A model generated the notes under the pieces. The model had not been told where the DNA came from, made no database searches, and was given only the letters and a program-made list of their open reading frames with translations. From the NCBI GenBank assembly GCA_009668225.1, contig WJYK01000001.1:620001-684000 (forward strand): a stretch of 64,000 nt of DNA, read 5' to 3'. Positions 4,667 to 46,819 of this stretch are shown one piece after another. The translations under genes and the position numbers were made by a program. This DNA comes from Enterobacteriaceae bacterium RIT693. GTDB lineage: Bacteria > Pseudomonadota > Gammaproteobacteria > Enterobacterales > Enterobacteriaceae. Positions within the stretch are counted from its first letter, which is position 1; each line of letters begins with the position of its first letter.

Positions 4667-4793
4667 CCCTCACCCTAACCCTCTCCCCAAAGGGGCGAGG
4701 GAACCAGAATGGTGTTCTTACTCTCCCCACAGGGGCGAAGAGACTAACCTGAATTCTCCCTCTCCCTTTTAGGGAGAGGGCCGGGGTGAGGGT
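4667..4793. repeat. Dispersed palindromic repeat, copy 1 (two inverted units)
   Basis: Left unit CCCTCACCCTAACCCTCTCC (4667 on) and right unit GGGAGAGGGCCGGGGTGAGGG (ending 4793) are inverted relative to each other, each with its own inner hairpin (CCCC-AAAG-GGGC type). The whole block lies between the convergent genes yajL and thiI and could fold into a long cruciform or act as a bidirectional terminator. Related blocks occur at 24743, 29439, 40085 and 46724. Confidence 0.85.
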
Positions 4794-23527: not shown

Positions 23528-24875
<1,348 letters not shown>

Positions 24876-29438: not shown

Positions 29439-29544
29439 GCCCCCTCCCCCCGGCCCTCTCCCCAAAGGGGCGACGGGGAAAAACGAGAGAGAGGATAGCG
29501 CTATTTATCCCCTCTCCCTTTCAGGGAGAGGGTTAGGGTGAGGG
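29439..29544. repeat. Dispersed palindromic repeat, copy 3
   Basis: Left unit CCCCTCCCCCCGGCCCTCTC and right inverted unit AGGGAGAGGGTTAGGGTGAG, with inner hairpins CCCC-AAA-GGGG and CTCCCT-TTC-AGGGAG, filling the space between malZ and proY. Confidence 0.85.
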
Positions 29545-34975: not shown

Positions 34976-36193
34976 ATGCGCATTCTCCACACATCAGACT
35001 GGCACCTCGGCCAAAACTTCTATACCAAAAGCCGGGCGTCTGAACACCAGGCCTTTCTCGACTGGCTGCTAAACGCCGCGCTTGAGCATCAGGTGGACGC
35101 GATTATTGTCGCGGGGGACATCTTTGATACCGGCTCGCCGCCGAGCTACGCCCGCGAAATGTATAACCGCTTTGTGGTACAGCTGCAGGCCACCGGCTGC
35201 CAGCTTGTGGTGCTGGCGGGTAACCACGATTCCGTTGCCACACTTAACGAATCCCGCGAGCTGCTGGCCTGCCTGAATACCCGGGTGATTGCCAGCGCCC
35301 GCCACCAAAAAGACGAGCAGGCGCTGGTCCTTAATCAAAAAGACGGCACGCCTGGCGCTATCCTGTGCCCTATTCCGTTCCTTCGCCCACGCGACATTCA
35401 AAGCAGCCAGGCCGGGCTGTCCGGCCATGAAAAACAGCGCTCCTTAATGGAAGCCATCAGCGAACATTATCAGCACTGCTATGAGGCTGCCGTTGCCCTG
35501 CGAGGTGACAGACCGCTGCCGATTGTCGCCACCGGGCACCTGACCACCGTTGGCGTAACGAAATCCGACGCGGTTCGCGACATTTATATCGGCACGCTGG
35601 ACGCTTTCCCGGCGCAGCACTTCCCGCCCGCCGACTACATCGCGCTCGGGCATATTCATCGCGCACAGAAAATCGGCGGTAGCGAGCATATTCGCTACAG
35701 CGGCTCGCCGATTCCGCTGAGCTTCGACGAAACCGGCAAAGCAAAAAGCGTGTTTCTCGTCGAGTTTAGCGGCGCTGCGCTGGCCAGCGTCGAACCGCTG
35801 GAGGTCCCCATCAGCCAGCCACTGGCCATCGTCAAAGGCTCGCTGCGCGAAATTGAGCAGAAGCTTGAGCAGTGGCGAAACGCGCCGACTGAACCGAAAG
35901 TCTGGTTGGATATCGAAATCGCCACCGATGAATATCTTCACGATATGCAGCGCCAGGTACAGGCGCTGACCGACGATTTACCGGTTGAAGTCGTCCTGCT
36001 TCGCCGCAGCCGCGAACAGCGCGAACGGGTGATTGCCAGCCAGCATAAAGAGACGCTGAGCGAGTTAAGCGTTGAAGAGGTTTTTGAGCGGCGGCTGAGT
36101 CAGGAAGGAACCAGCGAGGAACGCGCCGCCAGGCTAAGAACGCTGTTTGCCCAAACCCTTTCAGATTTGCACCAGCAGGAGGACCAGGCATGA
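34976..36193 (+). CDS. sbcD: Exonuclease subunit SbcD (Mre11 homologue)
   Basis: Nuclease subunit of SbcCD, which cleaves DNA hairpins and protein-blocked ends. 405 residues; metallophosphoesterase motifs TSDWHLGQ (about 6-13), [22 protein letters not shown] and LGHIHRAQ are all present. The start at ATG 34976 ([10 protein letters not shown]) is preceded by ACAGGTT; an in-frame ATG at 34964 has no ribosome site. Overlaps sbcC by four bases (ATGA). Confidence 0.96.
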
Positions 36194-39100
36194 AGATCTT
36201 AAGCCTGCGGTTAAAAAACATCAACTCCCTGAAAGGCGAGTGGAAAATTGATTTCACCCAGGAGCCTTTCGCCAGCAACGGGCTGTTTGCCATCACCGGC
36301 CCGACGGGCGCGGGAAAAACTACCCTATTGGACGCTATTTGCCTGGCGCTTTACCACAAGACGCCTCGCCTCAGCACCGTTTCGCAGTCGCAAAACGACC
36401 TGATGACCCGGGACACCGCAGAGTGCCTGGCAGAAGTCGAATTTGAAGTCAAAGGCGTTGGCTACCGGGCGTTCTGGAGCCAGAACCGCGCCCGTAACGC
36501 GGCAAACGGCAACCTCCAGGCACCGCGCGTAGAGCTGGCCCAAATCAGCGACGGCCAAATCCTCGCCGATAAAATTAAAGACAAGCTTGAGATTGTCGCC
36601 TCGCTGACCGGGCTGGACTACGATCGCTTCACCCGCTCGATGATGCTCTCCCAGGGGCAGTTTGCCGCCTTTTTAAACGCCGATGCCAACGACCGCGCCT
36701 CGCTGCTTGAAGAGCTGACCGGCACGGAGATTTACGGCACCGTTTCCGCCGCAGTGTTTGAAAATCATAAGCAAATCAAAAGCCGCCTTGAAAACCTGCT
36801 GGCTCAGGCTTCAGGTGTTGCACTATTGAATGAAGAGCAGCAACAGCAGCTTACGGAAAGTTTGCAGGCGCTTACTTTTGAAGAGAAAAAGCTTTCCGGG
36901 GAACACCAACAGCAGCAACAACACCAGCAGTGGCTCACTCAGCTAGCCCGACTTTCTGCCGACAAAGCCCAAAAGCAGCAGGCGCTGGACGCAGCCAATC
37001 AGTCGCTCAAAGCCGCAGAGCCGATGCTGGCGAAACTGACCCGAGCCTTGCCTGCCGAAAAACTTCGCCCTGACTGGCAGCGGTTGCAGGAAAAACAGCA
37101 GACGTTAAGGCAAAACGGCGAAGCCGCAGAGAAAGTGAATACCCGCTTACAGCAGCTTTCCGTCCGCCGGCAGCAAACCCGAATGCTGGCCGCCGAACAG
37201 GCCCAGCGGCTGAAGAGCGAAGCTCAGCAGGTCGAAGACTGGCTCGCGGCCAATGACCGTTATCGACTTTGGTCTGCCGAACTGACGGGCTGGCGCATGG
37301 CGTTCACGCAGCAGCAGCGCGACGAAAAACAGCTGACTGAGCTAAAGCAGGCGCGAGAAGCCAGCCGGCAAAAACTGCAGGCGCTGCCGGAGCCGACGCT
37401 GGGACTATCCCCTGAGGAAGTGAGCGCTCATTTACAAAGGACGCTGGCCGCCCGGCCCGCCCGCCAGACCCTGGCCGCCCTGCAGCCACAGTTCGCCACG
37501 CTGGAGAAACGTAAAGCCGAGCAGCAGCGGGAGATTGCCGAGCTGGATAAACTGATCGCTGAGCGTGATGCTGAACTAAAACAGAAAAGAACCGAGTTCG
37601 CCGCTAAGCGACAGGAATTGTTAGATGTAAAAACAATCTGTGAGCAAGAAAATCATATTATTCGCCTGAATGATGAACGAGAGCGCCTGCAACAAGATCA
37701 ACCTTGCCCGCTGTGCGGCTCAACGTCACATCCAGCAGTTGCAGAATATACGGCTCTGCAACCGGGGGAGAACCAAAAACGGCTGGCTCAAGTTGAAGAG
37801 GATGTTTCCACCCTGTCCAAACTTGGGGCTGCGCTAAAAGCGCAATGGGAATCACTGTGCCAGCAGCGCGAAAAACTGGCACAGTCCAGCGCCGCCATTG
37901 AGGCAGAAGAAACTTCACTGTCCGCCCGCTGGCAGCAGCAGTGCGCAGAACTAGGTATCGCTTTAACGCCGCAGGACGATCTCACCGCCTGGCTTGAAGA
38001 GCAGGAACAGCGTGAACAGCAGCTGCGCCAGCTAGGTGAACGCCAGACGCTGGAGGCGCAATATCAGCGCGACAGCCAGCAACATGAAAAGTTGAACGCA
38101 GACTTTGTGGCGCAGCGCGCTTCGCTACAAGCGGTACTGGAGCAGGCAGGTCTTCAGCGACCTGAGCCGGGCGAAGAGCAAACCTGGCTTGAGACTCGCC
38201 AACAGGAATCTCAGCAATGGCAGCACCAGCAGGACAAACTGCCCCAGCTTCGCCAGCAGCTCTCCGCTCTCGACATGTTGCTCTCAACCCTTGCAGACGA
38301 TGGCTCCACCCCACCGCTGCTGGATGAACACGAGCACCAGGCAGCGCTGCAAAACTGGCAGGCATTGCATAACGATTGCAACCTGCTTGAAGGGCAGCGC
38401 CAGTCCCTGCAAGAGCAGCTGAAGCAAAGTGAAGTCGAGGCCAGGGCTGCGCAGAAGCAGTTCAGCAATGCGCTTTCGGCCAGCCAGTTCAGCGATGAAG
38501 CCGATTTCCGCAGCGCCCTGCTGGAAGAAACCGAGCGCCTTGGGCTGGAACAGCGTAAACAGCATCTGGAGCGCCAGCAGCAACAGCAGGTCACTCTGCT
38601 GGAACAGGCTGAAAGCGCGCTGGCTCAGCATATCTCAGTGCGGCCAGAAACCCTGAGCGAAGAGGCGGAAATCAGCGTACTGGATGAACGTATCGCAGCG
38701 CTTACTCTCCAGCTGCGCGAAAACGCCTCTCGCCAGGGGCAAATCACCCAGCAGCTGCGCCACGACGAGGAAAACCGGGTTCGCCAGCAAACGCTGATGC
38801 TGGAGATAAAAGCCTGTGAAGCGCAGGTGGAAGACTGGGGTTATCTCAACGCGCTTATCGGCTCCAAAGAAGGGGATAAATTCCGTAAGTTCGCCCAAGG
38901 ACTGACGCTGGATAACCTCGTATGGCTGGCAAACAATCAGCTTAATCGCCTGCACGGCCGCTACCTGCTCCAGCGTAAAGATAACGAAGCGCTTGAGTTA
39001 CAGGTGGTTGATACCTGGCAGGCTGACGCGGTGCGGGATACCCGCACGCTCTCCGGCGGCGAAAGCTTCCTGGTAAGCCTGGCGCTGGCGCTGGCGTTGT

Positions 39101-39345
39101 CCGACCTTGTCAGCCACAAAACGCGCATTGACTCGCTGTTTCTTGACGAAGGCTTTGGCACCCTGGACGCACAAACGCTGGATACCGCGCTCGACGCGCT
39201 GGATACGCTGAACGCCAGCGGCAAAACCATCGGCGTCATCAGCCACGTTGAGGCGATGAAAGAGCGGATCCCGGTGCAAATTAAGGTGAAGAAGATCAAC
39301 GGCCTGGGCGTGAGCCGACTGGATAAGGTTTTTGCGGTGGATTGA
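36190..39345 (+). CDS. sbcC: Exonuclease subunit SbcC (Rad50 homologue)
   Basis: SMC-like ATPase partner of SbcD. 1051 residues (E. coli 1047): Walker [14 protein letters not shown] near 35-47, a long glutamine-rich coiled coil with the zinc hook CPLC near 505-508, ABC signature [19 protein letters not shown] and Walker [11 protein letters not shown] near 985. The ATG overlaps the sbcD stop. No gene follows before mak, whereas E. coli has araJ here. Confidence 0.97.
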
Positions 39346-39380
39346 CCTTTATCCTGGCTCACTCCCAGGGAAGTGTCTGG

Positions 39381-40041
39381 TAGTCACATTTTCCTTTCAA
39401 ATCCTCCGAGAGATGTCTTTCGATCCGCAGTTATTCCGTTCACTCGTACATTTGTTTCCCCTGCACGTTCAGATAACGGTGAACGTGTCCGGGGGATCAC
39501 GCCATCCCCCGAACAGCCCCGGCGCCCGGCGAGCTCATCGCCGCTGAAGCGGTAAACCCACCGGCTATCACCCAAACAGTCGGGGTCGTTCGCGATTCGT
39601 TCCCGACGATCGCTCTCTTTCGCTGCTCCCGGCAGCTCAACCCCGCCTGAGTTGGGTCATAACCGGGGGCGATGAGAGCCGGGAACAAGGGCGTGGCTGT
39701 GGGACTCGCAGCGCCAGTGACTTTCAGCGTGGCTGCTGGCTAAAAGCGAGGCTCGGTTCCGGCTTAAATCGCCTCCGTTTTCTCTCCGACTGGCCAGGGT
39801 CCGGACGTCGGGAACGGCCGGAGGCTGAGAGCGTCGGGAACGCATCTCAGCCGACCCAGGACTGGGAGATAAAACGGAGGTCTGCCGCTTCAGCGGTCGA
39901 TTTATTTGGCCGGGAGTCCGGGGTCTCGGGGAAGTGACGGTGACTTCCCCGAGTCGTTCACCGGTTCGGTGGTGACATATGAAACAGGACTGGAAGTGAA
40001 CGGAACCTTAGTCGATCCTTCATAGAACATATTTGTGACTA
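39381..40041. other. Highly structured non-coding element, possible ncRNA or non-autonomous mobile element
   Basis: Bounded by an 8-base terminal inverted repeat, TAGTCACA (39381-39388) and TGTGACTA (40034-40041). Internal stems include CACGTTC/GAACGTG (39464-39487), CGGGGGAT/ATCCCCCG (39490-39511), CCCGGC/GCCGGG (39628-39683), CCTCCGTTTTCTCTCC pairing 15 of 16 with 39865-39880, CTGAGAGCG/CGCATCTCAG (39825-39850) and an 11-bp perfect CTCGGGGAAGT/ACTTCCCCGAG (39925-39953). CCGCTGAAGCGG (39541-39552) is the reverse complement of CCGCTTCAGCGG (39885-39896). Nested long-range and local pairs suggest a folded RNA or DNA. No promoter was assigned. Function unknown; the family identity is not recognised with certainty. 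Confidence 0.6.
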
Positions 40042-40084
40042 AGACCCCCTGAGGTAGAGAAAGAAAACCGCTTCCTCTTTTAAT

Positions 40085-40120
40085 CCCCTCTCCACTTTGG
40101 GGAGAGGGTTAGGGTGAGGG
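40085..40120. repeat. Dispersed palindromic repeat, copy 4 (single unit)
   Basis: CCCCTCTCC-ACTTT-GGGGAGAGGG followed by TTAGGGTGAGGG: one unit of the family, ending four bases before the mak stop. Confidence 0.8.
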
Positions 40121-40124
40121 CGAT

Positions 40125-41036
40125 TTACTTCTCCAGAGGCCACAGCCACGCCGCACCGCGAACGCCGCTCGAATCCCCGTGCACCGCCTTGCGGATAGGG
40201 GTTTCACACTCTCCGCCAAATACCCACGGTTTAATCAGCTGCGGCACCGTTCGATATAAACGTTCCACGTTGCTCATTCCGCCGCCAAGAACGATCGCAT
40301 CCGGATCCAGAATATTCACAATATGGGCAAGCGACTTGGCAAGGCGCATTTCATAACGGCTCAGCGCTAATTCCGCCAGCGGATCCTGCTGTTCAGCGAG
40401 GCTGATAATCTCATTCCCCTTTAGCGTTTTTCCACTCAGGCGCTGGTAATCCGTGCCAAAGCCGGTGCCGGATATAAAGGTTTCGATGCAGCCTTGTTTG
40501 CCACAGTAGCATGGGACTTCGGCACGAAAACGCAGCTCGTCCTCATCCATCCACGGCAGTGGATTATGCCCCCACTCACCCGCCGTGCCGTTACCGCCAA
40601 TCAGGCTACGGCCGTTGATGGCAACGCCCGCTCCGCAGCCGGTTCCGATTATCACCGCAAACACCATCTGCGCGCCGGCAGCCGCACCGTCTATAGCCTC
40701 AGACACCGCAAGGCAGTTAGCGTCGTTTGCCAGCCTGACCTCCCGCTTTAGCGCCGTGCTGAGATCCTTGTCAAACGGCTGCCCGTTAAGCCAGGTTGAG
40801 TTCGCATTTTTCACTACCCGGGTATAAGGGGAAATAGACCCCGGGATGCCGAGCCCCACCGTACCGGTCTCGCCCGTTGCTTCCTCGGCCAGCCGTACCA
40901 GTTCAACAATATTCTTAATGGTGGCCTGGTAATCGTTTTTAGGCGTAGGTAAACGGTGACGATACAGCTGCTTACCGTCATCTGCCAACGCGATTACTTC
41001 TGTTTTTGTACCACCGAGATCGATACCTATGCGCAC
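40125..41036 (-). CDS. mak: Manno(fructo)kinase, ROK family
   Basis: ATP-dependent phosphorylation of fructose/mannose in the cytoplasm. 303 residues: N-terminal phosphate-binding [11 protein letters not shown] (4-14), catalytic Asp in [12 protein letters not shown], and the ROK zinc motif [15 protein letters not shown] near 175-190. A neighbour of rdgC as in E. coli, where the gene is also called yajF. Confidence 0.95.
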
Positions 41037-46723: not shown

Positions 46724-46819
46724 CCCCTAACCCTCTCCCCTGTGGGGAGGGGGGACTGAATCGAGCACTCATCTTCGATTTTCCCCCTCTCCCTTCCAGG
46801 GCGAGGGCCGGGGTGAAGG
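46724..46819. repeat. Dispersed palindromic repeat, copy 5
   Basis: CCCCTAACCCTCTCCCC-TGT-GGGGAGGGG, then CCCCTCTCCC-TTCC-AGGGCGAGGG with tail CCGGGGTGAAGG. It lies between convergent proC and psiF, where E. coli carries dgcC (adrA). Confidence 0.85.

Follow-up and report, generated by a model that had tools for sequence, protein, structure and literature searches.

A dispersed, strongly folded repeat between sbcC and mak: very probably an old non-autonomous transposon with Tn5-type ends

Results and discussion

Anatomy of the element downstream of sbcC

In the window (the whole 64,000-nucleotide stretch of DNA analysed here), sbcC is followed by an intergenic block of strongly palindromic sequence, by a REP-type hairpin and, on the opposite strand, by a gene that we take from gene order to be mak (fructokinase). 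These features are collected in Table 1. The preliminary description had bounded the block at 39381–40041 by an 8-base inverted repeat, TAGTCACA (39381–39388) and TGTGACTA (40034–40041). The block and the repeat are both real, but the latter makes up only the inner positions of a 19-bp terminal inverted repeat (TIR), so that the element is slightly longer than had been proposed. Its general plan, as seen in the alignment of copies, is a core of about 572 bp, then an outer segment and then a 19-bp end where this is preserved; the outer segments are of several kinds, and their type differs from copy to copy. In the better-preserved copies the inverted-repeat ends have the form CTGTCTCTTA(GT/TA)CACAWWT, and the intact end form of the element is CTGTCTCTTATACACATTT. 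The less deleted copies measure about 610–740 bp (677 bp for the window copy and 731 bp for the copy L192), and the GC content of the element is 58.9%, compared with 54.2% for the window.

As already described, the element encodes no recognisable protein, and it has no transposase gene, judging from the open reading frames of the window and from the core copies. Open frames are at chance: when the longest stop-to-stop frame is taken from each of 63 core copies, the median length is 117 aa, and 200 mononucleotide shuffles of the core in the window give a median of 110 aa. The pairings named in the preliminary description were all found on checking the sequence, namely the two listed with their arms in Table 1 and that between CCGCTGAAGCGG (39541) and CCGCTTCAGCGG (39885).

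Table 1. Features of the element and its surroundings in window coordinates
Feature	Position	Strand	Basis or remark
sbcC (context)	36190–39345	+	Ends 27 bp before the element
Whole element (677 bp)	39373–40049	As in window	TIR-to-TIR span (row L001) and dispersed copies
Left 19-bp TIR, decayed (GTGTCTGGTAGTCACATTT)	39373–39391	+	Differs at 3 positions from the closest of four consensus forms
Conserved core, limits TTCCGTTCAC/GTGAACGGAA	39434–40005	.	Alignment of copies
Hairpin CGGGGGAT-CACGCC-ATCCCCCG	39490–39511	+	
Long-range helix 39772–39787/39865–39880 (15/16 paired)	39772–39880	+	Covariation helix 15: 6/15 pairs changed on both sides
Hairpin GGCTGAGAGCGT...ACGCATCTCAGCC	39823–39852	+	Covariation helix 18: 4/12 pairs changed on both sides
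11-bp perfect hairpin 39925–39935/39943–39953, GACGGTG loop	39925–39953	+	Covariation helix 19: 9/11 pairs changed on both sides
Right 19-bp TIR, decayed	40031–40049	-	4 mismatches
REP-type hairpin CCCCTCTCC...GGAGAGGGTTAGGGTGAG	40085–40118	.	Adjoins the element
Presumed mak, fructokinase (context)	40125–41036	-	Ends 75 bp past the element, opposite strand

Copies in the genome, the genus and the family

The window block belongs to a dispersed repeat with about 45 copies. A blastn search of its own genome (G000; 5.04 Mb in 51 contigs) gave 64 candidates, 40 of which were scored, with identities mostly of 86–96%, and core patterns searched with up to three mismatches gave 46 left-core and 44 right-core matches, compared with none for the reversed control. 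Copies occur in all seven other genomes of the genus as well (2–22 left-core and 1–26 right-core matches each), and across these eight genomes the counts of core patterns point to strong differences in copy number between species. The genus itself is probably Cedecea, judging from the nearest sbcC loci, which are those of Enterobacter sp. Ag1 and Cy-643, Cedecea neteri and C. davisae. In a sample of the family, matches were found in 19 of 295 genomes and 12 of 154 genera. Three genomes (G096, G218 and G279) match over most of the core at 69–71% identity, with two genera outside Cedecea at about 70%; two further genera (G195 and G026) show partial core matches, and the remaining matches outside the genus are short.

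In C. davisae, the four examined copies of near full length have no TIRs, and some of them lie in multi-unit arrays. Beside L232, L234 and L235 of this species, which lack 19-bp ends, further partial units are seen, as in such arrays. Some contigs, L013, L069 and L211 among them, start or end in or near copies, which suggests that the repeat breaks short-read assemblies. No description of this repeat was found among the open-access PMC matches listed, going by titles and the beginnings of abstracts; the present analysis names an abundant repeat of the genus and connects it with a transposase family and a target that are already known.

Terminal repeats, target-site duplication and an empty site

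Taking the best 19-mer, a TIR within six mismatches was recognized on one side in 23 and on the other in 29 of the 50 copies of the own genome, compared with 10 of 500 stretches drawn at random from the window; only 16 of the 50 copies have both, and in many the TIRs are decayed or missing. The end pattern CTGTCTCTTA(GT or TA)CACAWWT, allowing two mismatches, is matched 19 times in the own genome (three times by the reversed control), and since the coordinates place all 19 matches at known copies, this genome showed no insertion sequence bounded by ends of this kind.

In the copy L192 the ends are nearly intact, and a perfect 9-bp target-site duplication (TSD), CCCAGAGGG, flanks it inside a REP hairpin. 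This site is readable in six of the seven other genomes of the genus (the contig of G005 ends in the REP), and in all six (G001, G002, G003, G004, G006 and G007) the element is absent and the flanks are 30–73 bp apart, compared with 746 bp here; in G007 the site is an uninterrupted REP hairpin, CCCTCTCCCAGAGGGAGAGGGGG. L192 is the only copy with a perfect TSD, and a 9-bp match is less improbable there than in unique DNA because the REP sequence is repetitive. Over the 27 copies with both ends, matching of the 9-bp flanks is high (a level reached by five of 500 shuffles, and by none of 500 for the 14 best copies) and matching of 11-bp flanks is somewhat high (p of 0.02–0.03). The 9-bp excess has a p of 0.04 when L192 is left out and is not significant (p = 0.13) on 16 independent sites without L192. 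In another genus, L276 also lies within a REP-type hairpin, between the near-repeats CCCTGAAAGGG and CCCCGAAAGGG. The terminal repeats, the roughly 45 copies and the 9-bp TSD with its matching unoccupied site therefore indicate a non-autonomous, MITE-like transposon, one of the options left by the preliminary description, and the homologue search that it had proposed yielded copies, boundaries and one perfect TSD. We thus consider it very probable that the window block is an old copy of such a transposon with Tn5/IS50-type ends.

Relation to Tn5 and to other dispersed repeats

The element shares 19-bp ends and a 9-bp TSD with Tn5/IS50 (IS4 family, IS50 group), the Tn5 mosaic end being of the form CTGTCTCTTATACACA. 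It differs in having no transposase gene, and beyond its ends it is unlike the three Tn5-related insertion sequences with which it was compared by eye. Elsewhere in the family, TIRs of the same form bound Tn5-like transposase genes at three of the seven loci examined, with the ends CTGTCTCTTATACACAAAT at L253, CTGTCTCTTGATCACAAGT at L252 and CTGTCTCTTCTACACAAAT at L257, the last with a 9-bp TSD, GTTATATAC. No such end pair was found at the transposase loci L254, L255 and L256; the ends at L258 are different (CATCSCATTACACACAAGT) and are accompanied by a 9-bp TSD. Tn5 transposase structures are matched over the whole length of the L253 protein (E about 1e-69). This protein also reaches 488 bits with the model NF033590, which matched 22 of the 295 family genomes, seven of them above the cut-off; four of the eight genus genomes had no match to it among the genomes listed. 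With the L253 protein as a query, no Tn5-like transposase was found in the eight genus genomes, a search that had no positive control within the genus, and Pfam PF02281 (Tn5) gave no match in the genus, although its control matched nowhere at all.

MITEs tend to be AT-rich and shorter than about 600 bp, which are typical traits rather than a strict definition, and the window copy, by its length and GC content, shows neither. ERIC and REP/BIME repeats of enterobacteria are likewise dispersed extragenic palindromic repeats, but their sequence and size are different, and REP is a target of the element. MITEs as reviewed in PMC10969869 have in common with the element the lack of a transposase gene, TIRs, many intergenic copies and a stable secondary structure. 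The element is set apart from them by its length of about 610–740 bp, by a GC-rich mosaic palindromic core with many helices, by its several outer-end types and by exchange between copies. Its frequent placement between convergent genes, the strong compensatory base-pair change in its core and the inverted interiors at sites that species share are also unusual for a MITE.

Placement between convergent genes and in REP sequences

We called open frames of at least 120 aa as neighbouring genes. Both neighbours could be called in this way for 49 own copies, of which 32 are flanked by convergent genes, 15 by tandem genes and two by divergent genes, compared with a baseline of 13 convergent pairs among the 52 gene pairs of the window (binomial p of about 3e-9). 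The convergent count was 27 of 49 before frames inside the element were masked, and the gene calls are rough, three of them still overlapping the element (L004, L016 and L195). Moreover, a REP heptamer occurs within 80 bp of 11 of the 50 copies, compared with nine of 1000 random draws. The window itself contains REP-type CCTCTCC/GGAGAGG repeats at 4680–4773, 24756–24770, 29455–29525, 40087–40101 and 46732–46786; three of these five REP-bearing spacers are between convergent genes and two between tandem genes.

For REP sequences as targets we draw on the paper of Tobes and Pareja (PMC1525189). According to it, convergent genes often have REPs between them, REPs are entered by an element of the IS4 family, and palindromes with G/C at their ends are frequent targets of Tn5, a target type that the element shares. 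The same paper describes ISRm22, an IS4-family insertion sequence of Sinorhizobium meliloti whose copies also lie in REP palindromes but which, unlike our element, is not transposase-less and has another host (PMC1525189). A Tn5-like transposase supplied in trans would cut the element at its ends, and the excised element would be joined into palindromic REP sequences near the 3' ends of genes, which may account for the bias towards convergent genes. In two copies, L192 (2320–2430; G000:C7) and L194 (G000:C12), REP hairpins replace the variable middle, as if REPs had been inserted into the repeat.

Fold and covariation of the core

The block had been described as structured, and its core is strongly so: the 577-nt fold has an energy of -310.2 kcal/mol with RNA parameters, compared with -237.7 ± 7.5 kcal/mol for 100 dinucleotide shuffles (z of -9.7), the z-score with DNA parameters is -10.1, and none of the 100 shuffles is as stable with either. 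For covariation we used 49 cores, hand-picked from 63 that are near full-length, in which 98.8% of 6,320 cells are paired in the consensus structure. Changes on both sides were found in 32 of its 129 pairs, compared with 11 ± 2 in shuffles and 1–7 in slid-partner controls, and the same structure on all 63 cores again gave 32 such pairs, compared with 11.5 ± 1.8. The covariation check suggested in the preliminary description thus shows that substitutions among copies preserve pairing. Comparison of copies shows that stems are exchanged for other, mostly self-complementary stems while loops stay constant; at the position of the 39490–39511 hairpin, for example, other copies carry different stems, which mostly still pair, around a conserved CGCCAT. 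Core columns are also more conserved than the ends.

In 45 of the 49 copies the + strand gives the better fold, and pairs that show several Watson–Crick types are more numerous on it (32 compared with 21 for the other strand), but G-U and A-C counts favour whichever strand is folded, so that the strand test favours neither RNA nor DNA. The covariation supports the view either that pairing is under selection or that imperfect palindromes are repaired, and is compatible with action at the RNA or the DNA level. The earlier suggestion of a structured non-coding RNA is therefore upheld as regards covarying helices but not by Rfam, where no family was matched at the gathering threshold or at E values up to 1. 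Moreover, no promoter-like match was found in the element, and terminator-like matches are at chance (one found, 1.0 expected).

Shared sites with exchanged and inverted interiors

At 33 sites of the own genome both flanks match a locus of another species, and the core marker is present there at 32; the loci compared were chosen for holding the repeat, and this count says nothing about the share of empty sites. In 50 site–genome comparisons, which are not independent of each other, the orientation is the same in 30 and inverted in 19, and the core marker is missing in one. For 13 orthologous pairs chosen for full cores (one own copy being used twice and one pair depending on a single flank), the orthologue is the nearest core in only two, and in seven it ranks 20th or lower against the paralogues of the own genome. 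L196 and L042 share their left flank and right end around different interiors, and two other pairs, L022/L044 and L036/L045, are clearly inherited, with cores 97–99% identical. At the sbcC–mak site, this genome and C. neteri NBRC 105707, whose contig stops soon afterwards, have the same mutated left end, GTGTCTGGTAGTCACA, followed by opposite interiors; the spacer holds an inverted half-element in two strains and none in C. davisae. In Buttiauxella and relatives (L071, L073, L074, L082 and L096) it contains a different short repeat, like GGATGACGCTGCGCTTATCCGACCTAC.

We infer that gene conversion among copies explains shared sites with differing interiors; for some of these sites, separate insertions into a single REP could be the explanation. 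Copies would thus recombine with one another, inversion would be possible in such an exchange because both ends look alike, and breakage of the hairpins by SbcCD may be what starts it. The bacterial repeats would then be a natural system of palindromes at fixed sites that swap and flip their contents. In our reading the family is a large and unusually structured one of Tn5-type, MITE-like elements evolving by concerted exchange, of which the mobile-element part is well supported and the exchange mechanism is what we infer.

Alternative explanations and a possible role

We may ask whether shared sites reflect inheritance followed by exchange, or whether elements were inserted independently in each species into the same conserved REP hairpins. 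The REP target of L192 and the often unrelated orientation and sequence at shared sites would fit the latter, but several observations make it distinctly unlikely: the common decayed left end before opposite interiors at sbcC–mak, the common flank and right outer end of L196 and L042, the two clearly inherited pairs and, at two shared sites here, base-identical junctions with shared private mutations. A relic of a phage or satellite had also been proposed, and a decayed protein gene may be considered with it, the position between sbcC and mak being that at which E. coli carries araJ. This position is incidental, since the spacing in most relatives is too small for an araJ gene: the mak end lies less than 500 bp from sbcC in 23 of 29 relatives in which mak was located (among 32 of 80 relatives listed), and the gap is only 65 bp in C. 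davisae. An araJ relic was rejected on this ground. Searched alone at blastn sensitivity, the element matches none of 5,426 E. coli genomes, blastn found no match among 50,697 phage records or 72,556 plasmid records, and neither of two exact core patterns occurs in any IMG/VR contig. Together with open frames that do not exceed chance, and above all with the copy number and the TIR/TSD anatomy, this refutes the relic for practical purposes.

A rather unlikely alternative, to our mind, is that the core is a functional element (a 3'-end RNA structure, a bidirectional terminator or a supercoiling insulator) selected between convergent genes, its transposon origin being only history. The excess of pairs changed on both sides, the conservation of the core relative to the ends, the convergent placement and the presence of the core at 32 own sites in at least one other species all argue for it. 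Yet quasi-palindrome correction during replication can yield compensatory changes without selection, the location bias could arise from the preference for REP targets without any further cause, and the promoter and terminator searches, the exchanged and inverted interiors and the strong copy-number differences between species speak against it. The transposon reading may also be extended, speculatively and in our estimate with little likelihood, to a Tn5-type mini-transposon that has been turned into genus-wide structural spacers between convergent genes: the folded core would be under selection, perhaps as a bidirectional 3'-end RNA structure or as a barrier to supercoils or read-through, and the roughly 45 loci would evolve in concert through gene conversion and inversion driven by hairpin breaks. 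If the core is indeed under selection, a transposon would have become chromosome punctuation between convergent genes. In another genus, two related repeats of about 570 bp (L242, 1372–1927, and L246, 1442–2005) match their own reverse complement with 68.8% and 69.8% identity, respectively.
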